IMG/VR virus record: IMGVR_UViG_3300035698_008008
Location: 1-25,107 of that record
DNA: 25,107 nucleotides
Source of the DNA: a virus
Strand: one strand, 5' to 3'
A program made the position numbers and the translations under genes. Of the stretch, positions 4,118-19,014 are shown piece by piece. Numbering within the stretch: position 1 is the stretch's first letter; each line of letters begins with the position of its first letter. Under the pieces are notes generated by a model, which did not search any database, had not been told where the DNA came from, and was given only the letters and a program-made list of their open reading frames with translations.

Positions 4118-4405
4118 ATGACAGATATAGTAGGAAAATATGTTAAATTTCTTTCGGAGAAATCAGTTGAAGAATTGATGGAATTATCAACCGCCAGACA
4201 CAATGTTTTATGCAAGAACCGTGTGTTTATCAAGCACAGAGATGCCTACAGGGCACACTTAAGGGGGATTGATTTTGATGTAATCAGCGACTATTTAACC
4301 ACGGATATGACGAGAATAGAGATAGAAATAAAGCATAAAAAAAGTATTGACACCGCCATGAAGAGATTCAAAACAATAACAGTGGAAAAAATAATAGGCA
4401 AATAA
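4118..4405 (+). CDS. Hypothetical small protein
   Basis: 95 aa from the ATG at 4118, which has GGAG just upstream. The frame extends further 5' (to 4004) but that part overlaps the nuclease gene out of frame and lacks a ribosome binding site. Basic, mostly helical by eye, with an LSEKSVEELMELS helix near the N-terminus and a Lys-rich C-terminal half. No family recognised. It lies in the small-gene tail of the operon that begins at P1. Confidence 0.5.
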   Translation: MTDIVGKYVKFLSEKSVEELMELSTARHNVLCKNRVFIKHRDAYRAHLRGIDFDVISDYLTTDMTRIEIEIKHKKSIDTAMKRFKTITVEKIIGK

Positions 4406-4421
4406 TAAAAAAAGGATAAAA

Positions 4422-4847
4422 ATGGTACTTGAAACTATTGGAAAAAAGATGAAAGAAGGAGCAGAAAAAATCAAAGAAGCTGCAGTAGGAAAGAAATTTA
4501 AAAAGCCGGTTTACAAGATAGTTAAAATAAGCAAAAAGGACGTCAAGGCTATTACGGATATTATGACTGAATTTCAGTCGTCAGTTGAGTCTTTTAACCA
4601 ATCAGCAGAGGCACTTGCCAGGGCACAAAAAGTGTTCGGTATAAGATTCGATTCAAAGGAAAATTCTAACAAAAGGATGACAAAATTTAATGTTGGTATA
4701 GGAGAGAAATACAAAATATCACGTACGTTACCTGTAAATGTTGATTTGAAAAATGGAGAGATCCGTGTTCTTCAAAATCCAGTTGAAGCCGCAGTATGGG
4801 AGAAGAACGAAGAGATTAAAAGAAACAAAGAAAATAAGAAAAAATAG
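4422..4847 (+). CDS. Hypothetical protein, last gene before a terminator
   Basis: 141 aa, started by AAAGGA 7 nt before the ATG. The N-terminal ~30 residues form a Lys-rich amphipathic stretch (IGKKMKEGAEKIKEAA), the middle is helical, and the C-terminal third contains a possible short beta region before a Lys/Glu-rich end. There is no signal peptide or membrane segment. No family recognised. The intrinsic terminator at 4878-4914 closes its transcription unit. Confidence 0.5.
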   Translation: MVLETIGKKMKEGAEKIKEAAVGKKFKKPVYKIVKISKKDVKAITDIMTEFQSSVESFNQSAEALARAQKVFGIRFDSKENSNKRMTKFNVGIGEKYKISRTLPVNVDLKNGEIRVLQNPVEAAVWEKNEEIKRNKENKKK

Positions 4848-4861
4848 TGCTATTTCTTTTA

Positions 4862-4870
4862 TGATACAAT
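4862..4870 (+). promoter_or_regulatory. Extended -10 promoter candidate P2
   Basis: TGA-TACAAT is an extended -10 element with a 5/6 hexamer. No -35 match is seen at 16-18 bp spacing. A transcript would start near 4877, at the very base of the terminator hairpin, so the product would be only about 38 nt. Its surroundings (TTATGATACAATAT) closely resemble those of P3 75 bp downstream. Confidence 0.35.
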
Positions 4871-4877
4871 ATGAATG

Positions 4878-4914
4878 AGAGGCAGTTTAGGGTGCTCCTT
4901 CCTGCCTCTTTTTT
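4878..4914 (+). terminator. Intrinsic terminator after the recombination/small-gene operon
   Basis: AGAGGCAG (4878-4885) pairs perfectly with CTGCCTCT (4902-4909). The loop contains a minor AGG/CCT pairing, and T6 runs from 4909 to 4914. It follows the stop codon of the gene ending at 4847 and precedes promoter P3. Confidence 0.8.
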
Positions 4915-4916
4915 GT

Positions 4917-4945
4917 TTGACAAAAATGATTATTTATGATACGAT
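4917..4945 (+). promoter_or_regulatory. Sigma70-type promoter P3
   Basis: TTGACA (4917-4922), 17-bp spacer, TACGAT (4940-4945) with a TGA extended -10 at 4937-4939. It begins 3 bp after the terminator T-tract. The predicted start near 4952 lies only ~10 nt before the ATG at 4962, giving a nearly leaderless message with no Shine-Dalgarno sequence. Confidence 0.65.
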
Positions 4946-4961
4946 ATATATAGATTAACAA

Positions 4962-5225
4962 ATGGGATGGGCAAGCGGAACAGATGTAGCAATGGTATTT
5001 GAAAAGATATTAGTAAAGTATGTACCAAAAGACAAACTATTAAAAGAAACTGAAAAGGTATTAAGAGAGCTTACAGACCAAGATTGGGATTGTGTTAATG
5101 AGGTAGAGTTATTTGATTTTGTTGATAAAAAACTTATAGTAGATGAACCAGAGGGTTATGATCAGGAAGATATTATAGAATATAAAAAGGATATCAAAAG
5201 ATATACTAAAAAGTTTCTAAAGTAA
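4962..5225 (+). CDS. 'MGWASG' family small phage protein
   Basis: 87 aa. The N-terminus MGWASGTDVA and the internal TDQDWDCVNEVELF pattern match a widespread family of small acidic phage proteins that begin MGWASG and carry a D-x-D-W/C-D-(T/V)-x-(D/E)-E block. Their role is unknown. The family match at the first residues supports this exact start, even though no ribosome binding site lies upstream; promoter P3 would place the start codon about 10 nt into the transcript. The protein is acidic and helical and probably cytoplasmic. Confidence 0.65.
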   Translation: MGWASGTDVAMVFEKILVKYVPKDKLLKETEKVLRELTDQDWDCVNEVELFDFVDKKLIVDEPEGYDQEDIIEYKKDIKRYTKKFLK

Positions 5226-5250
5226 AATTAGATATATTAGAAGGGGAATG

Positions 5251-5466
5251 ATGAAAATTGAAAATACAAAAACTTTTCAAGTGACAATAAAGTCAGACTA
5301 TAAGAGTAAATTTGGTACAGATTTTATGGAAAATGTTTTAAGATCTATATGTGAAAGTATGGACTTATCTAAAAAAGGATACCATGTGATTATAAAAAAT
5401 ATAGATGATCCCGAAGAAAAAACACCGCATAGTGCATTGAAAGACGTTATGCATGACACACACTAA
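5251..5466 (+). CDS. Hypothetical small protein
   Basis: 71 aa from the ATG at 5251; an ATG directly before it (5248) adds one Met and sits too close to the AAGGGG at 5241-5246. An alternation of strand-like (TFQVTIKS, YHVIIKNI) and helical (ENVLRSICESMDLS) segments suggests a small alpha/beta fold. No family recognised. It is the last gene of the short P3 unit, closed by the terminator at 5499-5528. Confidence 0.5.
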   Translation: MKIENTKTFQVTIKSDYKSKFGTDFMENVLRSICESMDLSKKGYHVIIKNIDDPEEKTPHSALKDVMHDTH

Positions 5467-5563: not shown

Positions 5564-6049
5564 ATGAAGAAGACGACTACAAAGCAAGCCGGGAGCATTA
5601 TGAACCTAAATCCAACTGGAAGAGGGGGGTTCGGTGATCATCCGGAAAATAGATCTGATGGTAGGTGGGACAAAAAGAATAGTCAAAGTTATTGGCTAAA
5701 TTTTTTTAATAGTTTAACGGTGGAAGAGTTGAAGGCTTATCCATATAACAACCCACCGTCAAAGATGACTGTAGCGTGTGCCAAAGCATATGAATGGACT
5801 TTAAGGGCACAAATAAATTTAAATGTATATAAAGAGACAACAAACAGAACTGAGGGCGTGCCTAATCCAGACAATGGTGAAAACTTGGTTCCAGAAGGAG
5901 AAGAAAATGAAGAAGTTGACTTATCAAAACCGTTGCAAGATATTGCAAGAGCAATTCTCGCAATCGCAGGAGATAATAAAGTTGATAAAAAGTGCAAAAA
6001 AAAGTCAAAGAGGGATGATAAGGGAACTGTACATAAGCGCGATAAATAA
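5564..6049 (+). CDS. Putative terminase small subunit
   Basis: 161 aa with AAAGGAG 9 nt before the ATG. The N-terminus has an N-L-x-P-x-x-x-G-G region followed by NRSDGRWDKK and a helical LNFFNSLTVEELKAY segment. This is similar in style to phage TerS/DUF5681-type proteins, which open with a basic NLKPF...RNPGGRPKG-like arm and a DNA-binding helical domain. The C-terminal third is acidic and then very Lys-rich. The main support is position: first gene of the head operon, overlapping the large terminase gene. If correct, it recognises the packaging site and feeds DNA to the motor. Residue-level evidence is modest. Confidence 0.5.
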   Translation: MKKTTTKQAGSIMNLNPTGRGGFGDHPENRSDGRWDKKNSQSYWLNFFNSLTVEELKAYPYNNPPSKMTVACAKAYEWTLRAQINLNVYKETTNRTEGVPNPDNGENLVPEGEENEEVDLSKPLQDIARAILAIAGDNKVDKKCKKKSKRDDKGTVHKRDK

Positions 6050-7505
6050 ACTCGGACTGCCTTTCTTGTCTCAATGCATATTAGGTTATAAAAACAATAT
6101 CCATCATTATGACTGGTTCGGGATATTGGATAATAAGTTAATACAGAATGCAAAAGGTAAATTAGTTCACAATAATACTAAGAAAAAGAACAATAAAATA
6201 ATGGTTCTGGCTGCTAGAAGTCATGGTAAGAGCACTGTTTTTACTGTAGAAAATTCTATAAATGAGATATTAAAAGATGTGAACGTAAGGATTATAATAG
6301 TCTCAAATGCACTCGATCAGTCAAAGGCCTTTCTTAGAGAAATAAAGGGTCAGCTGTTAAATAACGAGGTAGTTAATTTTTTATATCCAAATTTAGTCCC
6401 GATAACTAAAAAGAAAATGGACAAGAGTAAGTGGTCCGAAACAGAAATCATATTGAATCGAACTGATAACAAAATAAAAGATCCGACCATTTCAGTTGTT
6501 GGTGTAGGTGGATCATTACTTTCAAGACGTGCCGATGTTATTATCTGCGATGATATTTTGAACAATGAGAATACCAGAACTCCGGAGCAGAGAAGGAAGT
6601 TTTTTGATTGGTTTATGAAAGTCCTACTGCCTATATTGGAGCCGGGAGGAAAACTTATTGTAGTTGGAACGACTTTTAACGTAGACGATCTATATCAAAA
6701 GTTTATGAGAGATAAAACATTTGATGTGAGGCTTAGACAGGATTCAATAGTCGACGAGGAAAAGAATAAGGTCATTTGGCCCGAAAGATGGTCCTGGGAT
6801 CAATTGATGGACAAAAAGAAGTCGATGGGATCGATAGCCTTTAATCAGCAATACAGAAACATCGCCATTGACGATGAGACAGCTAAATTCAAACATCAAT
6901 GGGTAATGCAGTGTCTCGACAAGCAAAGGAGCTTACTGTCCAAATACTCGCCTGTTGAGTCGGACATGGGAAGAATTAAGATATCACAAGGCGTTGACGT
7001 GGCTATAAAGGAAGATGGTGATTATTTTGTAATCGTTACATTGGCTGGAGATAGTTTAGGAAATAGATATTTGTTGAACATAGTAAGAGAAAGAGTATCC
7101 CCTGCGGTTCAAAGAGAATTGATAAAACAACAGGGCAGTGCGTTTAATCCGGGAAAAATAAAAGTAGAGAATAATGCGTACCAGGACGCTCTTAGAATGG
7201 ACTTGGCTGATTCAACAGCGTTGCCGATCGAAGGGCACACTACTGGAAGTGAAAAGTACGATTTGGAAATAGGAGTAGACTCACTGGCAATACTATTTGA
7301 AAATAAGAAATTCAAATTACCGTATTCAGAGGATCCAAGAACTCAACAGCTGGTTGGCGTACTAATAGAAGAATTGCTGCAATATCCATCTGGACATACC
7401 GGTGATGTTCTAATGGCCTTATGGCTTGCCAATTTGGGATTAAGGGAAATGAGTGTCGGCGGAGAAGTGGAACAGATAGATTTTGATATTGATAGCAATA
7501 GTTGA
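6015..7505 (+). CDS. terL: Terminase large subunit (packaging ATPase-nuclease)
   Basis: With the ATG at 6015 the protein has 496 aa. Walker A-like AARSHGKST holds Lys72, and Walker B IICDD has Asp179/Asp180. VVGTTFNVDDLY is the coupling motif (motif III). The C-terminal RNase H-like nuclease shows Asp328 (GVDVA), Glu385 (VENNAYQ) and Asp464 (GDVLMALW). It translocates DNA into the prohead and cuts it. The start is uncertain. An ATG at 5907 has an ideal AAGGAG with 6-nt spacing and would add 36 residues, but it overlaps TerS by 143 nt; the frame is open even from 5823. The 6015 start puts the usual LPF-LSQ-ILG region near the N-terminus. Confidence 0.93.
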   Translation: MIRELYISAINKLGLPFLSQCILGYKNNIHHYDWFGILDNKLIQNAKGKLVHNNTKKKNNKIMVLAARSHGKSTVFTVENSINEILKDVNVRIIIVSNALDQSKAFLREIKGQLLNNEVVNFLYPNLVPITKKKMDKSKWSETEIILNRTDNKIKDPTISVVGVGGSLLSRRADVIICDDILNNENTRTPEQRRKFFDWFMKVLLPILEPGGKLIVVGTTFNVDDLYQKFMRDKTFDVRLRQDSIVDEEKNKVIWPERWSWDQLMDKKKSMGSIAFNQQYRNIAIDDETAKFKHQWVMQCLDKQRSLLSKYSPVESDMGRIKISQGVDVAIKEDGDYFVIVTLAGDSLGNRYLLNIVRERVSPAVQRELIKQQGSAFNPGKIKVENNAYQDALRMDLADSTALPIEGHTTGSEKYDLEIGVDSLAILFENKKFKLPYSEDPRTQQLVGVLIEELLQYPSGHTGDVLMALWLANLGLREMSVGGEVEQIDFDIDSNS

Positions 7506-10386: not shown

Positions 10387-10610
10387 GATTCAAAGAAGAT
10401 CATGTATTCACTGTCAACAGTGAAGGTAAATATGAAGAAGAAAGTTTAGTTCGAGCTAACATCGGTTTGGGTATTGATGCGATGATAGGTATAAGAACAT
10501 CAGACAAACAGCACGAGAGACAATCATATATATACAATAAAGATGTTTGGGATAGCGCTAAAGCCAAAGAGCATTTCGAAAAACATTTTAAAAACAAGAA
10601 GGGAAAATAA
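10383..10610 (+). CDS. Small head-region protein with QSY-x3-K-x6-AK motif
   Basis: 75 aa, coupled by ATGA overlap to the gene before and sharing its stop's final base with the glycosyltransferase start. The C-terminal half reads like the short motif that phage portal/protease-region proteins often carry at their ends: I-G-x-R-x-S-x-K-Q-x-E-R-QSYIYNKDVWDSAKAKEHFEKH. In those cases it resembles QSY-x-F-x-K-x-x-(W/F)-x-x-x-x-A-K-x-W-x-x-x-H. The function of that motif is unknown to me. No catalytic residues are apparent. Confidence 0.5.
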   Translation: MRFKEDHVFTVNSEGKYEEESLVRANIGLGIDAMIGIRTSDKQHERQSYIYNKDVWDSAKAKEHFEKHFKNKKGK

Positions 10611-12880
10611 TGTATATATGTGGAATTTGCAAAACACCGAGCTCGTCTGAAAGATGTGGTCTTTGTGGTGGTAAGGCAATTGTGCCAATAGAAGAAGAGA
10701 GTCACACAACTATGCCTGTTCCGGAAGAGAAGTTTAAACCTATAAAAGGAAAGATCGCTTATCTCGACCAATACACATTTCCTGCATTCGTTGGTGGCGC
10801 TCAAATATCTATGTTTACTCTACTTAAAGACTTGCAAAAGAATGGCAAGGATATCGTTGTAGGTGGACAGGACGCCAGTAAAATGACCAGGGATGGGATT
10901 AGAATAAGACATTTGGATCGGATCGATAGTTTCCTAAAAGAAGAAAGACCAGAAGTAGTATTGACTCAATTGAACGTATCAGGTGAAGTTGTGGCTGAGT
11001 GTAAAAAACTTGGCATAAAAACATATCTATTTGTAAGAAGCTTCGTAGAGCATTTTTGCCCTAGATGTAGACCATCATATGGTGGAAACTGCTACAAGCC
11101 AGGATACAAGGCAGACATTCTTACATGCCCAGCTGATTGTGAGAACGACGTCTTAAAATCGAATAGGAGCACATTCAAAATGGCCGACAACATCGTTGTC
11201 AATTCAAAATATATGAAGAAGTCAGTTAAAAGATTTTTCAACAGAGATAGCATAGTTTTATACCCTCAAATAAAAAAAGAAAAGTACCTCGTAAAGGCTA
11301 AGAAAAAAAAGTATGTGACATGTTTCGCTCCATCTAAAGGTGAGGGTGTGCTGTCGGATATTATAAATGGAATGCCAGACGTTAAATTTATGATTATTGG
11401 AGATGGATATTCTAGACTAAAAACAATATTTCCTCATATCAATGGTTCTCAAAAAGTTGAAGATATAAGAGATTGCCTTTCTGAAACAAAGATAACGATA
11501 GCGTGTCCTCAATCCCACCTAGAGGCATTTGGAAGAACGCCCGTTGAGTCTGGATTTAATGGCATACCTACAATATCTTCTAATCAAGGAGGACTGCCAG
11601 AATCAACCGGTCCCGGAGGATTATTGATAGACGACTACAAAAATTATAAAGAATGGATAAAGGCGATAAACAAATTACTGGACGACAAAAAACTCTATAA
11701 GAAGCTATCCATTGCGGCCGAAAAAAATTCGAAAAAATTTGACGATATAAAACCGATATTAAAACAACTCGAAAAAGATTCTTCTGCCGTGGAGGTAGAT
11801 GATGACATAGATATTTTGGCAAAAAGAAGTCAGAAGAGAATATACTTCGTCACTGAAAACTGCAACTTCTATTCTGGTGGAAGATACTTCAATTATGAGA
11901 TTATAAAGGCCATTGAGGAACTAGGATACGATCTAACGGTATTTACCAATGCTCACCCTGTGTTTGGTCATGATTTCAAGTTATACAAGCCACACAAGGA
12001 GCTAGTCGCTAAAATGAGCGACATGGAAAAAACTTTAGAAAAATATCCTAAACCGGACCTAGTAATGGCATCTCCAACGTGGGGAAATATTGCTGCGATG
12101 AAATATGCTAAGAAATTTAACGTACCGATAATATGTCAGATACTCGATCCGCTAAATATGTTGACCGAGATGTTTCCAGATAACGAAGAATACGAAAATA
12201 ACTTTTTTGGACCAATGGCCAAAGTTATGAAGGGTAATAAAGACATCGATCTTTTTGTAATGACCGAGGAATGTAAAAAATGGACGCAGAAATGGTTAGA
12301 AAATGATAAAATAGAAATAGTGAGTCCGGTCGTAAACAGTAGAGAATTATCAACGGCCCCTGATTGCAAAAAAACAAATGATATATGTTATGTTTCCAGA
12401 TTGGTAGAAAGAAAGAACTTCAGACATACGCTAGAGGCGTTTTCCAAGCTTCCTAAAAAATGGACTCTAAATATAGTCACAAGCTTCTCCCAGATCGATC
12501 ATGATAAATTGCTAGAAGAATTTGGTATAAAAGACAGAGTTATAATGCACATGAACTTAAATGATTTTGAGAAGTTTAAGTTGTTCAAAAAATGTAAAGT
12601 GATGCTCAACTCTTCATTATACGAAGGATATGGAATGTGGCTAATCGAGGCTATGGCTTGCGGAATGAAGACTGTTTGCTACAGACAAAAAAACTTTATA
12701 GAGATCATGGAAGACAATGATGAGTATGTCCATCTGTCAAAGTTTAATGACGTGGAAGATCTTACAAAAAACCTAAAAAAAGTATGTAGTTTTGAAGAAA
12801 AATTGAAACCGATTAATGATTATAATTTTGGAAAAATGGTTGGTCAAGTAAGAGATATGTTAGATAAGAGATTATTATGA
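10610..12880 (+). CDS. Two-domain GT4 glycosyltransferase fusion with N-terminal zinc ribbon
   Basis: 756 aa, unusually long because two GT-B enzymes are fused. Residues 1-21 form a zinc ribbon (Cys4, Cys7, Cys16, Cys19). Domain 1 (~45-400) starts with IAYLDQY...FVGGAQ and ends with EAFGRTPVE, the E-x7-E donor site (Glu305/Glu313). It contains a five-Cys insert (Cys150, 153, 161, 173, 177). Domain 2 (~414-756) has SGGRYFNYEI, CYVSRLVERKNF and EGYGMWLIE (Glu672/Glu680). Both domains keep their E-x7-E, so both may be active, adding two sugars in turn. It sits between head genes and a methyltransferase joined by ATGA overlap. Donor sugars and acceptor are unknown; the neighbouring reductase points to a deoxyhexose. 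Confidence 0.88.
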   Translation: MYICGICKTPSSSERCGLCGGKAIVPIEEESHTTMPVPEEKFKPIKGKIAYLDQYTFPAFVGGAQISMFTLLKDLQKNGKDIVVGGQDASKMTRDGIRIRHLDRIDSFLKEERPEVVLTQLNVSGEVVAECKKLGIKTYLFVRSFVEHFCPRCRPSYGGNCYKPGYKADILTCPADCENDVLKSNRSTFKMADNIVVNSKYMKKSVKRFFNRDSIVLYPQIKKEKYLVKAKKKKYVTCFAPSKGEGVLSDIINGMPDVKFMIIGDGYSRLKTIFPHINGSQKVEDIRDCLSETKITIACPQSHLEAFGRTPVESGFNGIPTISSNQGGLPESTGPGGLLIDDYKNYKEWIKAINKLLDDKKLYKKLSIAAEKNSKKFDDIKPILKQLEKDSSAVEVDDDIDILAKRSQKRIYFVTENCNFYSGGRYFNYEIIKAIEELGYDLTVFTNAHPVFGHDFKLYKPHKELVAKMSDMEKTLEKYPKPDLVMASPTWGNIAAMKYAKKFNVPIICQILDPLNMLTEMFPDNEEYENNFFGPMAKVMKGNKDIDLFVMTEECKKWTQKWLENDKIEIVSPVVNSRELSTAPDCKKTNDICYVSRLVERKNFRHTLEAFSKLPKKWTLNIVTSFSQIDHDKLLEEFGIKDRVIMHMNLNDFEKFKLFKKCKVMLNSSLYEGYGMWLIEAMACGMKTVCYRQKNFIEIMEDNDEYVHLSKFNDVEDLTKNLKKVCSFEEKLKPINDYNFGKMVGQVRDMLDKRLL

Positions 12881-13458
12881 AATGCAATATCTGTGATAAG
12901 GAAGTAAAATTTGAAGCACATCGAGGAAGAAAAGGAGTAAGATGTCCTATTTGTAAGTCTTTAATGAGGCATAGATTTATATATTATGCCTTAGAGAAAT
13001 GTTTAGAAAAAAAGGTATCGATATTACACTACTCGCCACATCCGGGGCTAAAGGATAAAATAAAAAGTTTTGATGTCGACTACACATCGATGGATATATA
13101 CCCAGGAGAGGGCGTTGTGTCGACAGCAGAGGACCTTCCGTTTAAGGATAATAGTTTCGACTTTATAATTTGCATTCATGTTTTAGAACACGTTAAGGAT
13201 GACGTAAAGGCATTGAAAGAAATGAAAAGAGTATTGAAAGATGGAGGGATAGCCATTATACAAACTCCTTTTGAAAATACTCCAAGTCAGGCTGATCATA
13301 TGAGGGTATATAATCCGATGAAATTAATTGGGTTTTTAGCTTCAATCATAGGTGAATGTAAAACAGAGATAAGTATCGGAATGGAAGATGGAAAATTATA
13401 CAATTTTGAAAGCGCTAAAAATATATTATATTATGCAAAAAAGAAAGGAAATAAATGA
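12877..13458 (+). CDS. Zinc-ribbon class I SAM-dependent methyltransferase
   Basis: 193 aa, coupled by ATGA overlaps on both sides. The N-terminus is a zinc ribbon, Cys3, Cys6, Cys23 and Cys26 (CNIC...RCPIC), leading into LMRHRFIYYALEK. The Methyltransf_11-type core follows. The usual G-x-G-x-G loop is replaced by ILHYSPHPGLKDK, then come the acidic SMDIYPGE strand, STAEDLPFKDNSFDFIICIHVLEHV (motifs II-IV) and RVLKDGGIAIIQTPF. This ribbon-plus-core arrangement recurs among methyltransferases of sugar gene clusters. It probably O-methylates a sugar made or transferred by its neighbours, though a protein target is possible. The gene length is normal and complete. Confidence 0.82.
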   Translation: MKCNICDKEVKFEAHRGRKGVRCPICKSLMRHRFIYYALEKCLEKKVSILHYSPHPGLKDKIKSFDVDYTSMDIYPGEGVVSTAEDLPFKDNSFDFIICIHVLEHVKDDVKALKEMKRVLKDGGIAIIQTPFENTPSQADHMRVYNPMKLIGFLASIIGECKTEISIGMEDGKLYNFESAKNILYYAKKKGNK

Positions 13459-14366
13459 AAGCAATTGTAACCGGAGCCAATGGATTTGTCGGAAAGCACC
13501 TATCCGAATATCTTAAATCACAAGGAGTAGAGGTTATACCGATAGGATTACCAAAATATAATTTGAATGATCCCGATGTTGTAGACGAGCTCATATACAC
13601 GATAGAACCTGATTATATTTTCCATTTGGCCGCAAAGGCATTCGTACCAACTAGTTTTAGAAATTCTTGGGCCGTACAAGAGAATAATGTGAGGCCGGCA
13701 GTAAATATTTTTGAGTCAGTATTAAACTACGGACTTTCTACAAAAATATTAGTTGCCTGTAGTTCAGAGGAGTATGGAAAAGTAAAACCAGACGAAGTTC
13801 CAATGAACGAAAATAATGAAGTCTTTAGAAGATCTAGCTCTCCATATGGAATTTCAAAGATGATGATGGAAGCAAATGCAAAATGGTATGCGGATACTTA
13901 TGGATTAAATATAATAATTACCCGCGCATTCAATCATACTGGCCCAGGACGTGGTGAACAGTATGTTTGCTCTACATTTTCAAAACAAATAGTGGAAATT
14001 GAAAAAGGAAAAAAGGATGCAATAAAGGTAGGAAATTTAGAAGCAAAGAGAGATTTCACCGATGTCAGAGATATGGTAAGGGCATATTGGTTGGCTGCAA
14101 GTAAATGTATTCCAGGAGAGCCATATAATATATGCTCGAATAAAACCATTTCAATACGTGAGATTTTGGATAGATTGATAAAACTATCCAACATGGAATC
14201 AATAACTGTAAATGATGACCCTGCAAGAATGAGACCATCTGAAGTTCCATTGCTTTATGGAGATAATAGTAAGTTTGTAAAATCAACAGGATGGAAACCA
14301 GAGATTTCAATGGATAAAACCTTGGAAGACATGCTGGATTTTTGGAGAAAGGAAATAAATGACTGA
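13455..14366 (+). CDS. NAD(P)-dependent sugar epimerase/reductase, GDP-4-keto-6-deoxymannose reductase-like
   Basis: 303 aa extended SDR with AAAGGA before the ATG. G-x-x-G-x-x-G is Gly7, Gly10, Gly13. Active-site residues are Ser103/Ser104 (CSSEEYG) and Tyr131-x3-Lys135 (SPYGISK). RAFNHTGPGRGEQYVCS, VGNLEAKRDFTDVRDMVRAYW and the later ARMRPSEVPLLYGD and TGWKPE segments follow the Rmd type (GDP-4-keto-6-deoxy-D-mannose reductase) rather than GDP-mannose dehydratase. Rmd makes GDP-D-rhamnose from the dehydratase product. No dehydratase is in the window, so the host or another phage region would have to supply the substrate. A different nucleotide-sugar epimerase remains possible. Confidence 0.82.
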   Translation: MKAIVTGANGFVGKHLSEYLKSQGVEVIPIGLPKYNLNDPDVVDELIYTIEPDYIFHLAAKAFVPTSFRNSWAVQENNVRPAVNIFESVLNYGLSTKILVACSSEEYGKVKPDEVPMNENNEVFRRSSSPYGISKMMMEANAKWYADTYGLNIIITRAFNHTGPGRGEQYVCSTFSKQIVEIEKGKKDAIKVGNLEAKRDFTDVRDMVRAYWLAASKCIPGEPYNICSNKTISIREILDRLIKLSNMESITVNDDPARMRPSEVPLLYGDNSKFVKSTGWKPEISMDKTLEDMLDFWRKEIND

Positions 14367-15101: not shown

Positions 15102-16202
15102 ATGAAATATAAAAAACAAAGAATCGTAGAGAGTATAGATATAATTGCCGAGATGTCTTCAAAGGCTGATGGATTTAATATTGATGTTCCTTTCGCTAAA
15201 GGCGTTAATATCAAAGAAATAGTTGACGAAGATAAAGATCCAATGTTCGTAACGATAGAAGCGATCAACAACACTATTTCGAGGAATGGAAACAATTGGA
15301 CTATTGAATCTTTAATGGAGATAGCAGAGCAAATAAACCTAAAGAAACCAGATGCATATATGGGCCATCTTGCAGAGAACGAGAGGAAAAGCAAAGCACC
15401 TCGTCCTGAAACGATATGGCTTGGTTCGCTAGTTAAAGAGGTCGATGGAAAACAGAGATTGTTCATTAAGGGATATGTAATGCCATACGCTAATGAACTA
15501 AAAACTTATCTTAGAAAAGCGAAAGCCGCAAGTAAGAAAGTTTCGGTTTCTGTATACGGTCTTGCCCAAAAAGCCTGGGATAGCATGAAGAAGGCTTATA
15601 ATATCACCAAGTTTGAACTTGAGAGTATTGATTGGGCCCGATCTGGATCGGAAGGCGTTCCAAATTCTGGATTTATGAAATTAACAAGTGAAATGAAAGA
15701 GGAGAACATTATGGATAAAGCAAAAATAATCCAAGAAATGTCCCTAGCGGATTTAAAAGAACATAACCAAGATTTGTTTAATAAAATAAACAAGTCTGGA
15801 TATGATAGTGCAGAGAAAAAACTTTCAAAAGATTTATGTTTAGTTCAAGAGATGAAAGATATTAAAGAAGAACTATCCATAGATGGAAAGTTAGTTGCTA
15901 AAGATGTTATTACAGAAATGAAAGATGACATCAAGAGTATGATCGGTGGATATATTGATAGTAAGGTATCAAGCGTAAGCAACCTAGCAGTTAGAAAAGT
16001 TGTTAAATCAATGATAGTTTCTGAAATGTCAGGTGGAAATTACACTAAAGAATCAGCAGATAGTGCAATTAATAAAACACTAGAATCGTCAGAAGGAAAA
16101 TATCTGATTCAAGAGATGAACTCTAACCTTGAGCCAAAAATTACTAAAGAAATCGATAGCAAAAAAGATAAAAACAAACAAAGCAAATTTATTAAAATGT
16201 AA
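15102..16202 (+). CDS. Prohead maturation protease fused to scaffold domain
   Basis: 366 aa. The N-terminal ~195 residues look like a phage capsid maturation protease: His89 in YMGHLAE, then WLGSLVKEV and LFIKGYV strands, Ser148/Ser150 in KVSVSVYG as nucleophile, and Asp177 in ESIDWARSGSEGV near the end of the domain. The remainder is helical, Lys-rich and scaffold-like. An (I/V/L)-x-E-M motif recurs at Glu17, 212, 250, 272, 308 and 338, with a weaker copy (TSEM) at Glu197; the same motif occurs twice in the capsid protein N-terminus. Glu17, 197 and 212 would free the protease core. No ribosome binding site precedes this ATG, only the U-rich end of a hairpin. A strong internal site lies before residue 204. 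Confidence 0.75.
   Translation: MKYKKQRIVESIDIIAEMSSKADGFNIDVPFAKGVNIKEIVDEDKDPMFVTIEAINNTISRNGNNWTIESLMEIAEQINLKKPDAYMGHLAENERKSKAPRPETIWLGSLVKEVDGKQRLFIKGYVMPYANELKTYLRKAKAASKKVSVSVYGLAQKAWDSMKKAYNITKFELESIDWARSGSEGVPNSGFMKLTSEMKEENIMDKAKIIQEMSLADLKEHNQDLFNKINKSGYDSAEKKLSKDLCLVQEMKDIKEELSIDGKLVAKDVITEMKDDIKSMIGGYIDSKVSSVSNLAVRKVVKSMIVSEMSGGNYTKESADSAINKTLESSEGKYLIQEMNSNLEPKITKEIDSKKDKNKQSKFIKM
15699..15704 (+). promoter_or_regulatory. Internal ribosome binding site in the protease gene
   Basis: GAGGAG 6 nt before the in-frame ATG at 15711 (codon 204), at the junction of protease and scaffold regions. It is much stronger than anything before the gene's own start codon. Confidence 0.5.
15711..16202 (+). 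CDS. Nested scaffold protein from internal start
   Basis: Internal initiation at ATG 15711 would give residues 204-366 of the protease gene as a separate 163-aa scaffold without the protease domain, the arrangement known for lambda C/Nu3. The segment is helical and charged, has no Trp, and carries five of the seven (I/V/L)-x-E-M motifs, so it would be destroyed by the protease during maturation. The evidence is the GAGGAG site and the domain boundary coinciding with it. It is inferred, not shown. Confidence 0.45.
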   Translation: MDKAKIIQEMSLADLKEHNQDLFNKINKSGYDSAEKKLSKDLCLVQEMKDIKEELSIDGKLVAKDVITEMKDDIKSMIGGYIDSKVSSVSNLAVRKVVKSMIVSEMSGGNYTKESADSAINKTLESSEGKYLIQEMNSNLEPKITKEIDSKKDKNKQSKFIKM

Positions 16203-16218
16203 ATAGAAAGGGCATAAA

Positions 16219-16581
16219 ATGTCTGAATTTCAAGAACAAGTCACTAACAACAACAAAGAAACATTAAGATCCGACGGAAGAGCCGTTGATGTTTTGTTAG
16301 ACAAAACCTATTACAAAGGTGGAGCCGCTCTAAGAGAAGGTTTTCACGGAATAATTATGAATGAAGGTGATTCTGGTGAAACTGTTGCAATGGAAATTGC
16401 TCAACGTGTTCACGAGATTACTGTAGCTGGCGGAATTACTGCAGCTAAAGGCGAATTACTTTATATAAGTACTGCTGGTGTAGTCAGTAACGATGATACG
16501 GGCAGACTGTTTATGAGAGTTGTTCAAGCAAAAGATGCAAACAATGTTCTTTGGGGCTTACTTTTGCCACAAAATGACTAA
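16219..16581 (+). CDS. Head decoration / capsid-stabilising protein
   Basis: 120 aa with AAAGGG before the ATG, located directly before the major capsid protein. The C-terminal two thirds (AQRVHEITVAGGITAAKGELLYIS...GRLFMRVVQAKDANNVLWGLLLPQ) form a small beta-barrel-like pattern: a strand, G-x-x-x-x-G-(E/D)-x-L-Y, then strands with an A-K-D turn. This resembles phage capsid cement proteins such as the DUF2190 group. It would bind the outside of the mature shell. No cleavage motif of the (I/V)-x-E-M type is present. The position and size favour this over other roles. Confidence 0.65.
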   Translation: MSEFQEQVTNNNKETLRSDGRAVDVLLDKTYYKGGAALREGFHGIIMNEGDSGETVAMEIAQRVHEITVAGGITAAKGELLYISTAGVVSNDDTGRLFMRVVQAKDANNVLWGLLLPQND

Positions 16582-16610
16582 TAATAACAAATAATTAACA
16601 AAGGAAAAAT

Positions 16611-17660
16611 ATGTTTGACAAAGAATTATTTGAAAGAGCTCACAATAAAGCAACCAGTATAATCCAAGAAATGTCTAAAGGAAAAAGAGATTTTGGTGTT
16701 GAGTGGGGAAAAGCTTTCAATGAAGGAAAAGCAACAATTCAAGAAATGATCGGTACTGCCGATGGTGGTGAAGATTTCATCACAAAAATAACTTACGACG
16801 TATACAAAGGTAGAGAATCAGCACCTTTGCTTTACAAATCAATTTTTAACACACTAACAGATCCAAACTTTCCTAAGACTCTAATCGACAACGAAATGGG
16901 ACCTGTCCAAGTTGTATTTTTAGAGAAACTAGAAGGTGGAGAAGTTAAATTCGGTTCAATGGGCCCTGGTTTTCAGAAGACAGTTACTTTTCTAACCTAC
17001 GCTGCTGGAATTGAATATAACGAAGACATGGTTGAATACAATCAAACATGGAAGCTTTCAGAAGTTGGACTCGCATTCGGTGAAGCTTATAACAAGCTTC
17101 TTAATCACATTCACCTATATCCAGTCATTTCCGACACATATGTTACTACTGGTGCTAACATTGCAGCTCAAAAAGTTGCTCAAGAAGGTAACAATGCATA
17201 TGGTACAGGTGGAGTCGCTCAACTTATTGCATTCGATACAGATCTTGAAACTACACTTAGAAACGCTCTAACTGTATTACCTAAAGGATCGATCGTATTG
17301 GCAAACACTGCTGATCAGTTCATCCTAGAAGATGCAATTGCTGGATCAATGTATCCCGATACAAGTCCATCTCTTGTTAAGACTAAACTTAAAGCCGCTA
17401 ACTTCATATTCTATGATGGTGATGAGGTTGTTGTTCAAGGAAAAACCTACACTTATACTGGTGTAACTGCTGGACTTATCTACTTAATCGTTCCAAAAAG
17501 ACAGTTTAAAGAATATGTCAAACATGATTTAAGAATCGACGCAGACGATGGTGATCTTTCAAGACTAATCGTTTCTCAAATCGTTGGTAGAGCAAGACGT
17601 GCTGTTCTTATCGGAACTTCTGGTAAATACGGTGCAGTTAAAGTTGATATAGTAGCATAA
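16611..17660 (+). CDS. Major capsid protein (HK97 fold)
   Basis: 349 aa with AAAGGA before the ATG. Residues 1-45 are a charged helical arm containing two copies of the cleavage-like motif (IIQEMS at Glu20, TIQEM at Glu45). Cleavage at Glu45 would leave a 304-aa shell protein starting MIGTADGGEDF. The rest suits the HK97 fold: an N-arm, an E-loop region (~85-120, FLEKLEGGEVKFGSMGPG), a spine helix (EVGLAFGEAYNKLLNHI), an A-domain with VLPKGSIVLANTADQFI and a final beta strand. Codons differ from the neighbours (more CTT, GCT, ACT and C-ending codons), as expected for a highly expressed gene. Neighbours are protease/scaffold and decoration genes. Confidence 0.85.
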   Translation: MFDKELFERAHNKATSIIQEMSKGKRDFGVEWGKAFNEGKATIQEMIGTADGGEDFITKITYDVYKGRESAPLLYKSIFNTLTDPNFPKTLIDNEMGPVQVVFLEKLEGGEVKFGSMGPGFQKTVTFLTYAAGIEYNEDMVEYNQTWKLSEVGLAFGEAYNKLLNHIHLYPVISDTYVTTGANIAAQKVAQEGNNAYGTGGVAQLIAFDTDLETTLRNALTVLPKGSIVLANTADQFILEDAIAGSMYPDTSPSLVKTKLKAANFIFYDGDEVVVQGKTYTYTGVTAGLIYLIVPKRQFKEYVKHDLRIDADDGDLSRLIVSQIVGRARRAVLIGTSGKYGAVKVDIVA

Positions 17661-17875: not shown

Positions 17876-17917
17876 GACGGGTGTTTAACTCACCCGTCTT
17901 TAGCAGGAAGCCCCTGC
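17876..17917 (+). terminator. Twin hairpins after the capsid operon
   Basis: A perfect 8-bp stem, GACGGGTG (17876-17883) with CACCCGTC (17891-17898), is followed by only TTT. A second hairpin, GCAGG (17903-17907) with CCTGC (17913-17917), comes next. Because the T tract is short, a weak terminator or an RNA processing/stability element is equally likely. Confidence 0.45.
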
Positions 17918-17931
17918 ACGAAAGGACATAT

Positions 17932-19014
17932 ATGTCTAATAAATTGAACATGATCAACTGGATCCAATCTGTTGGTCAAGGACAGGGATACAGTGGAGCT
18001 GGTGAAAATAGTATTTTAGCTTTAGAAGAATTGGGAATTGATGTCAGATTAATGGGTTTTTCAAATGTCCCAAAAAAGAATTTAACAAAAAAGGGTTTAG
18101 AGATTAAAAAGAAACCATTTGTCATGGCTCAAGTAGGTGTCACGTTTGGATTTCCGAATGCATTCTCTAGTATGAATAATCCTATAAAAATAGGTTACAC
18201 AGAATGGGAAACAGATAAATTCCCAAGCATTCCTTGTGACTGGGCTGGACCAGAGGGAAATGCTGTAAAGATTATTAACAATTTAGATATGTTGTGGGTA
18301 GCATGCAATCACAACAAGAGACTTTTTGAGAGGGCTGGAGTAAAAATACCTATAGAGGTAGTGCCTCATGGTGTAAATCCAGAACAATATCCTTTGATAA
18401 TAAGACCTAAGCGAAAAACATTTACATTCTTGATGCTTGGTACTCTAACGTCGAGAAAAGACCCAGGAAGGGTTCTGAGCGCGTTTATTGATCTTTTTAA
18501 GGACAACATGGACGTTAGAATGGTATTTAAGACGCAAAGTGGTGTAATGGGCCACATAGAACTTCCATACAAAAATGTAGATATTATTGATAGATCCGCA
18601 ACGATGGAAGAAATGGAAGGATATTATAGAAACGCCGATTGTTTCGTATTTCCTAGCAGAGGAGAGGGATTCGGTCTTCCTCCAGTTGAGGCAATGGCCA
18701 CAGGTCTTCCAACAATATTCACAGAAACGACAGGCATGAACGACTATGCAGATGAGAGATATAACTATCCTGTATCTGTAGCCAGAAAAGAAAAAGTATC
18801 CCGTTATCCTAGAAGATGGGGAGATGTTGGCAATTGGGATATTTGTGACTTTGAAGATTTAAAAAGAAAAATGAAATATGTCGTTGAACATAGAGAAGAA
18901 GCATATAAGAAGGGAATTGAGGCATCGAAGTGGGTTCATAAAAATTGGACTTTCAAAAATAGCGCAGAGAAGATGATTAAATTGATAGAAGGTTTAATCG
19001 AGAATAGGAGATAA
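17932..19014 (+). CDS. GT4-type glycosyltransferase
   Basis: 360 aa from the ATG at 17932, which has AAAGGA upstream; the frame is open back to a GTG at 17881, but that would translate through both hairpins. GT-B fold landmarks are a QGQGYSGAGENSI glycine loop at the N-terminus, VVPHGVNPEQYP, FLMLGTLTSRKDPGRVL (start of the C-terminal Rossmann half) and EGFGLPPVE with the E-x7-E pair Glu245/Glu253. It transfers a sugar from a nucleotide donor and is cytosolic. Its place between capsid and fibre genes, apart from the sugar cassette upstream, suggests a virion protein as acceptor, but a host glycan is possible. Confidence 0.85.
   Translation: MSNKLNMINWIQSVGQGQGYSGAGENSILALEELGIDVRLMGFSNVPKKNLTKKGLEIKKKPFVMAQVGVTFGFPNAFSSMNNPIKIGYTEWETDKFPSIPCDWAGPEGNAVKIINNLDMLWVACNHNKRLFERAGVKIPIEVVPHGVNPEQYPLIIRPKRKTFTFLMLGTLTSRKDPGRVLSAFIDLFKDNMDVRMVFKTQSGVMGHIELPYKNVDIIDRSATMEEMEGYYRNADCFVFPSRGEGFGLPPVEAMATGLPTIFTETTGMNDYADERYNYPVSVARKEKVSRYPRRWGDVGNWDICDFEDLKRKMKYVVEHREEAYKKGIEASKWVHKNWTFKNSAEKMIKLIEGLIENRR

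Follow-up and report, generated by a model that had tools for sequence, protein, structure and literature searches.

In phage T4, the prohead protease gp21 cuts after the glutamate of L/I-x-E, with LIE-9 as the candidate site of its N-terminal autocleavage (PMC9026906), and 65 N-terminal residues are removed from the capsid protein (PMC9958956). As a yardstick, we counted 16 [IL]xE motifs in the T4 scaffold gp22 against 5.7 expected; the residues that follow them are diverse, and gp22 has only two E-M. The T4 capsid protein gp23 has LTE65-A, in agreement with the 65-residue removal (PMC9958956). In phage SPN3US, gp245 cuts after AXE, with a preference for Ser at P1' (PMC10052503). Here we describe a head gene operon in a virus record of 25,107 bases (IMGVR_UViG_3300035698_008008; this whole stretch of DNA is called the window) that very probably constitutes a prohead maturation system, in which a gp21-like protease cuts shared phi-x-Glu-Met sites.

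The protease-scaffold protein and its Glu-Met sites

The protease-scaffold gene lies downstream of genes for a terminase, a portal protein and a head-morphogenesis protein, as judged by PHROG matches (Table 1). Its 366-aa product matched phrog_3219 (7.5e-17), a family annotated in PHROG as of unknown function, and no Pfam or NCBIfam model reached its cut-off with the protease. The AlphaFold2 (AF2) model, built from 43 sequences, has a confident domain at residues 25-195 followed by a helical C-terminal part, and the only significant Foldseek matches to it were the three chains of T4 gp21 in 5jbl (E 1.2e-4, prob 1.00). Aligned to 5jbl by VIA-align, the model gave Z 12.0 and an rmsd of 3.4 over 147 aligned residues, and the next rows were the herpesvirus proteases or assemblins of pseudorabies virus, cytomegalovirus and Epstein-Barr virus, with Z of 5-7. 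His89, Ser150 and Asp177 are invariant across the 43 aligned sequences, and from their position in the sequence we take His89 and Ser150 to match His85 and Ser140 of T4. As shown by model and fold match, the N-terminal domain is predicted to be a serine protease with the T4 gp21/assemblin fold, and the helical part in line with it within the same protein would be the scaffold. Low-confidence loops of the model lie at residues 16-23, at Glu17, and at 199-205, adjoining Glu197. Elsewhere in the head region, at 10610-12880, 13455-14366 and 17881-19014, we recognized by eye glycosyltransferase genes and an apparent nucleotide-sugar epimerase gene, one of these sugar-related genes standing directly after the capsid gene; in a relative, L002, the corresponding place holds an ORF of similar sequence.

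The nine E-M sites that an earlier note on this DNA had claimed, at Glu17, 197, 212, 250, 272, 308 and 338 of the protease-scaffold protein and at Glu20 and Glu45 of the capsid protein, were all found at those residues, and Glu197, which it had called weaker, reads LTS-E-M, with Thr at P3 and Leu at P4. A third E-M of the capsid protein, Glu95 (DNEM), is in the shell domain and lacks the hydrophobic residue at P3. The earlier note had also called chance unlikely and asked for a count in shuffled proteins. In composition-preserving shuffles, 20,000 per protein, the six [IVL]xEM of the 366-aa protein compare with 0.35 expected, a number that none of the 20,000 shuffles reached, and the two of the capsid protein, both in the N-terminal arm, compare with 0.10 expected (p=0.003). 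The other 28 ORFs of the window (7178 aa) hold 11 EM vs 12.8 expected and four [ILV]xEM vs 2.8. The E-M motif is thus confirmed as real, non-random and confined to the protease-scaffold and capsid proteins. Chance and compositional bias as its source are ruled out by the shuffles together with the other ORFs. The fact that the codons at the sites vary freely, with GAA or GAG for Glu and with GCC, AGT, CAA, ACA or TCT before it, implies that the constraint acts on the protein.

Not only does the 366-aa gene encode both a protease and a putative scaffold, but it also contains a candidate nested start, which is in frame at codon 204, seven codons past Glu197, and does not fall on an E-M. No clear ribosome-binding site precedes the main start at 15102. 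Similar nested starts with a Shine-Dalgarno sequence, at most 60 codons after the core, were present in 54 of the 108 relatives; the figure for in-frame ATGs of the core was 15/339. To judge from these sequence signals, translation from the nested start probably also yields the scaffold as a separate protein.

Table 1. Features of the protease-scaffold and capsid region, in window positions
Feature	Position	Strand	Basis or remark
Prohead protease-scaffold fusion protein, 366 aa, phrog_3219	15102..16202	+	ORF, PHROG match, AF2 fold match
Site IAEM, Glu17	15144..15155	+	Predicted N-terminal propeptide removal; low-confidence loop 16-23
Predicted protease domain, residues 25-195	15174..15686	+	High-pLDDT block without internal E-M
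His89, Ser150, Asp177	15366-15368, 15549-15551, 15630-15632	+	Invariant columns in relatives
Site TSEM, Glu197	15684..15695	+	Predicted protease/scaffold release; E-M in 39/42 aligned relatives at this column
Candidate nested start, AGAGGAG, 6-nt spacer, ATG 15711-15713	15698..15713	+	163-aa scaffold protein
Site IQEM, Glu212	15729..15740	+	Sequence motif
Site VQEM, Glu250, scaffold	15843..15854	+	Sequence motif
Site ITEM, Glu272, scaffold	15909..15920	+	Sequence motif
Site VSEM, Glu308, scaffold	16017..16028	+	Sequence motif
Site IQEM, Glu338, scaffold	16107..16118	+	Sequence motif
Capsid decoration (cement) protein candidate, 120 aa	16219..16581	+	No E-M; position and size like the phiCD27 protein matching PF09956 Phage_cement_2
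Major capsid protein precursor, 349 aa, phrog_3116	16611..17660	+	PHROG 1.2e-70; 9gay by sequence and fold
Site IQEM, Glu20, capsid arm	16662..16673	+	Position shifts or site lost in relatives
Site IQEM, Glu45	16737..16748	+	Predicted mature capsid N-terminus, Met46; low-confidence segment 41-49
Predicted mature capsid protein, Met46-Ala349, 304 aa	16746..17657	+	HK97-like fold

Site layout and the P2 residue across the family

The capsid and protease-scaffold genes have homologues, arranged as in the window and with a small gene between the two, in Weizmannia phage Youna2, Bacillus phages BSP7 and BalMu-1 and Clostridioides phage phiCD27, and likewise in 24 bacterial contigs, the titles of which are nearly all of Bacillota, and in many contigs of IMG/VR. 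The small protein of the window, 120 aa long, has no family match in Pfam/NCBIfam or PHROG. Scanning viral contigs with the protease sequence alone gave no relative, and alignment-based searches were needed. In an alignment of six diverse phages, the Glu17 and Glu197 columns of the protease and the Glu45-Met46 columns of the capsid protein are invariant, though the phiCD27 residue at the Glu197 column, and the propeptide register generally, are less certain owing to stretches of different length.

The 43 aligned proteins were split into propeptide, core and scaffold. Within the window clade, a branch of the capsid tree with 100/100 support and 10 rows, the scaffolds hold 51 EM vs 7.9 expected and the propeptides nine vs 1.9, and the cores have none vs 2.7. 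The excess recurs outside the clade in scaffolds (150 vs 32.1) and before the core (49 vs 9.6); the cores there have 14 EM vs 6.1 expected and are not depleted, so that only the window clade avoids the motif in the core. Across 108 non-redundant relatives, the scaffolds contain 473 EM vs 93.5 expected, and a comparable site stands before the core in 102 (32 by shuffling) and no more than 30 residues after it in 104 (20 by shuffling). The residue following [ILV]-[ASTVCIG]-Gly-Glu is Met in 232 of 348 cases (17-fold enriched) and Ile in 71 (3.3-fold), and conversely X is Glu in 232 of the 234 instances of [ILV]-[ASTVCIG]-Gly-X-Met. Met at P1', which the earlier note had singled out as unusual, is therefore a strongly enriched feature here, and it is not one of T4 gp21 targets.

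The residue at P2 differs by lineage. In the window clade it is Ser, Ala, Arg, Thr or Gln at scaffold sites and Gln, Arg, Lys, Glu, Ser or Ala in capsid proteins, never Gly in either, whereas outside the clade all 56 capsid proteins with EM have Gly there, as do 136 of 150 scaffold sites. The earlier motif is best refined to phi-x-[G or S/A/Q/T/R/K]-E-M, in which lineage determines P2. On comparison of the sequences, such a pattern fits substrates in two proteins that would be tracking one protease; since the P2 shift is mostly one event, it is supporting and not conclusive.

In the case of a further relative (L104), both capsid-arm sites are Gly-Glu-Leu (5839-6879), and its protease-scaffold protein has GEM, GEL, GEI, GEV and GEQ sites. 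P1' seems, from these sites, to be relaxed in the lineage of L104.

A different change can be put forth, tentatively, for L108 (IMGVR_UViG_3300017923_000007; loci 4388-5446 and 5896-6885), in which P1 may have switched from Glu to Lys/Arg at all four comparable places, a natural charge swap of protease and substrate in step. The basic sites are VSK-M in the propeptide, LTK-M at the protease end, VGR-M at the scaffold C-terminus, where two relatives (L055 and L071) have VGE-M, and ISR-V in the capsid protein. E-M is absent from the scaffold, propeptide and capsid arm of L108, and the one that is left, at residues 32-33, is at the edge of the protease core. Its scaffold has five [ILVMA]x[KR]M vs 0.73 expected (p=0.0002), the protease retains the His, Ser and Asp, and where relatives have the basic protease loop SKRGWNY it has the acidic EDYEDEYEF; in L109 the loop is without basic residues, yet the Glu sites are kept. 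Searches with the L108 capsid protein, with its protease and with alignments found no relative sharing the switch. Considering that 22% of the L108 scaffold is Lys+Arg and that there is no second genome, the switch stays a lead from one genome only.

The predicted mature capsid protein and the proposed maturation pathway

The capsid family phrog_3116 is annotated in PHROG as of unknown function; the window capsid protein matched 9gay, phiCD508 gp49, by sequence (1.6e-47) and by fold (Z 22.5, HK97 fold). Its model has low confidence at residues 1-50, and the shell fold starts from residue 51. Of 73 aligned capsid proteins, 72 have Glu at the Glu45 column and 66 have Met at the next; four close relatives have Ile in place of Met, two have Leu, and L108 has Arg-Val at the pair of columns. 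With seven of the 73 having Ile, Leu or Val at P1', Met is a strong preference and not an absolute rule. The arm of the window clade has a mean identity of 28%, as against 57% for the mature part, and Glu45-Met46 is present in 10/10; the earlier note had asked for an alignment of homologues to show whether the sites are kept while the flanks vary. The Glu20-type arm site is missing in L002, which has IIKEQ instead.

Over 345 residues, the phiCD27 capsid protein does not differ from the phiCD508 gp49 of 9gay, 9gaz and 9gb0. Its conserved site is KPLGE55-M56, which predicts a mature protein of 290 residues, and the deposited gp49 chains comprise 287, 286, 280 and 274 of the 345 residues. In the VIA-align alignments, window residue 69, equivalent to phiCD27 Glu81, aligns with residue 26 of 9gay and residue 25 of 9gb0. 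The numbering of the entries is thus offset by 55-56 from the full-length phiCD27 protein, with residue 1 at about Met56-Met57, with an uncertainty, for 9gay, of about one or two residues, and it follows that the modelled mature shell starts at, or within 1-2 residues of, the predicted Glu55 cut. The modelled part and the offset numbering of 9gay agree with removal of the arm, and could also come from disorder of an arm that is uncut. The phiCD508 paper names gp47 a capsid protease and reports it in virions; no cleavage site is given in its main text. None of the papers searched, in their main text, describes a Glu-Met site in these phages or gives an N-terminus for them.

It can be envisioned that, in the assembled prohead, the protease would cut after Glu at phi-x-Glu|Met and so release itself at both ends, at Glu17 on the N-terminal side and at Glu197 (or 212) on the C-terminal side. 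The scaffold would be cut into short peptides at Glu212, 250, 272, 308 and 338, and the capsid arm would be removed at Glu20 and finally at Glu45, to leave a shell subunit of 304 aa. The nested start at 15711 would supply extra scaffold without protease, and the folded core is without a site, so the protease would not destroy itself there. We infer the cutting itself and its order, alongside a site code established statistically and by homology. The maturation reading of the earlier note, with self-cutting, scaffold shredding and capsid trimming, gains support from the predicted gp21-like fold with sites flanking the core, from conserved sites with variable flanks, from the P2 residues of scaffold and capsid, which appear to differ together by lineage, and from the homologous solved capsid, whose model starts no more than one or two residues from the predicted cut.

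A structural or binding role for E-M, such as a helix cap or a contact repeat common to scaffold and capsid arm, would account for the scaffold sites that fall within or at the ends of helices in the AF2 model, and scaffold and capsid arm do have to interact. We consider it improbable that this replaces cleavage: the sites lie on both sides of the protease core with none in the cores of the window clade, the terminal ones sit in low-confidence stretches, the adjoining protease has the gp21 fold and its T4 relative cuts after L/I-x-E (PMC9026906), and one site coincides with the start of a solved mature capsid. The 9gay numbering, which permits either Met56 or Met57 as the first residue, leaves room for a cut at an adjacent bond, either following Met or preceding Glu; such a cut, or one restricted to the capsid and terminal sites with the scaffold largely intact, is very improbable, since the enzymes of T4, phiKZ, SPN3US and 201phi2-1 cut C-terminal to Glu (PMC9026906, PMC10052503) and enrichment is as strong at the scaffold sites as at the other sites.

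A signal at the DNA level is ruled out by the codon variation. That the GA(A/G)ATG strings act as nucleotide signals, for example as internal starts, and the dipeptide is a by-product, has in its favour the nested start near Glu197, the ATG of which is not that of an E-M; as the number and position of sites follow protein regions, this explanation is extremely improbable.

With this reading, two PHROG families of unknown function in Bacillota phages acquire one, phrog_3219 as protease-scaffold and phrog_3116 as major capsid protein, and exact mature N-termini are predicted for the cultivable phages phiCD27/phiCD508, Bacillus BSP7 and Weizmannia Youna2. The family would also be one that keeps both predicted autocleavage sites of its gp21-like protease, and the lineage-specific P2 together with the possible P1 switch makes protease-substrate co-evolution directly testable.

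Comparison with known head maturation systems

A nested scaffold gene after the protease is known from lambda C/Nu3 and Mu I/Z, and the strong in-frame start of the window could likewise yield scaffold alone; lambda C has a different protease fold. SPN3US gp245 and phiKZ gp175 likewise cut after Glu at a short motif in many head proteins and cleave themselves (PMC10052503, PMC9026906). SPN3US differs from the window in having Ala at P3 and the Ser preference at P1', and both are giant phages, likened to the window by motif and self-cleavage only. The head module of phiCD27/phiCD508, comprising the protease gp47, the decoration protein gp48 and the capsid protein gp49, has homologous genes in the same order (tblastn 5e-45 for the capsid and 5e-8 for the protease of a phiCD27/phiCD508-like module), with GEM sites at matching places; unlike the window, it has Gly at P2 and more sites in the arm, and the window in turn has glycosyltransferase genes in its head region.

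With T4 gp21/gp22/gp23 the window shares the predicted protease fold, Glu at P1, a hydrophobic residue at P3 and the over-representation of the motif in the scaffold, as well as an N-terminal autocleavage candidate (Glu17, corresponding to LIE-9) and a capsid arm that is removed in T4 (65 residues) and predicted to be removed here (45). In contrast to T4, protease and scaffold are one polypeptide in the window, P2 is fixed by lineage, the C-terminal site of the protease (Glu197) is conserved, and P1' is nearly always Met, where T4 sites carry many residues. The operon thus encodes a prohead-protease system of the T4 kind, to which the whole family adds a Met at P1' (second choice Ile) that is not a feature of the T4 sites.
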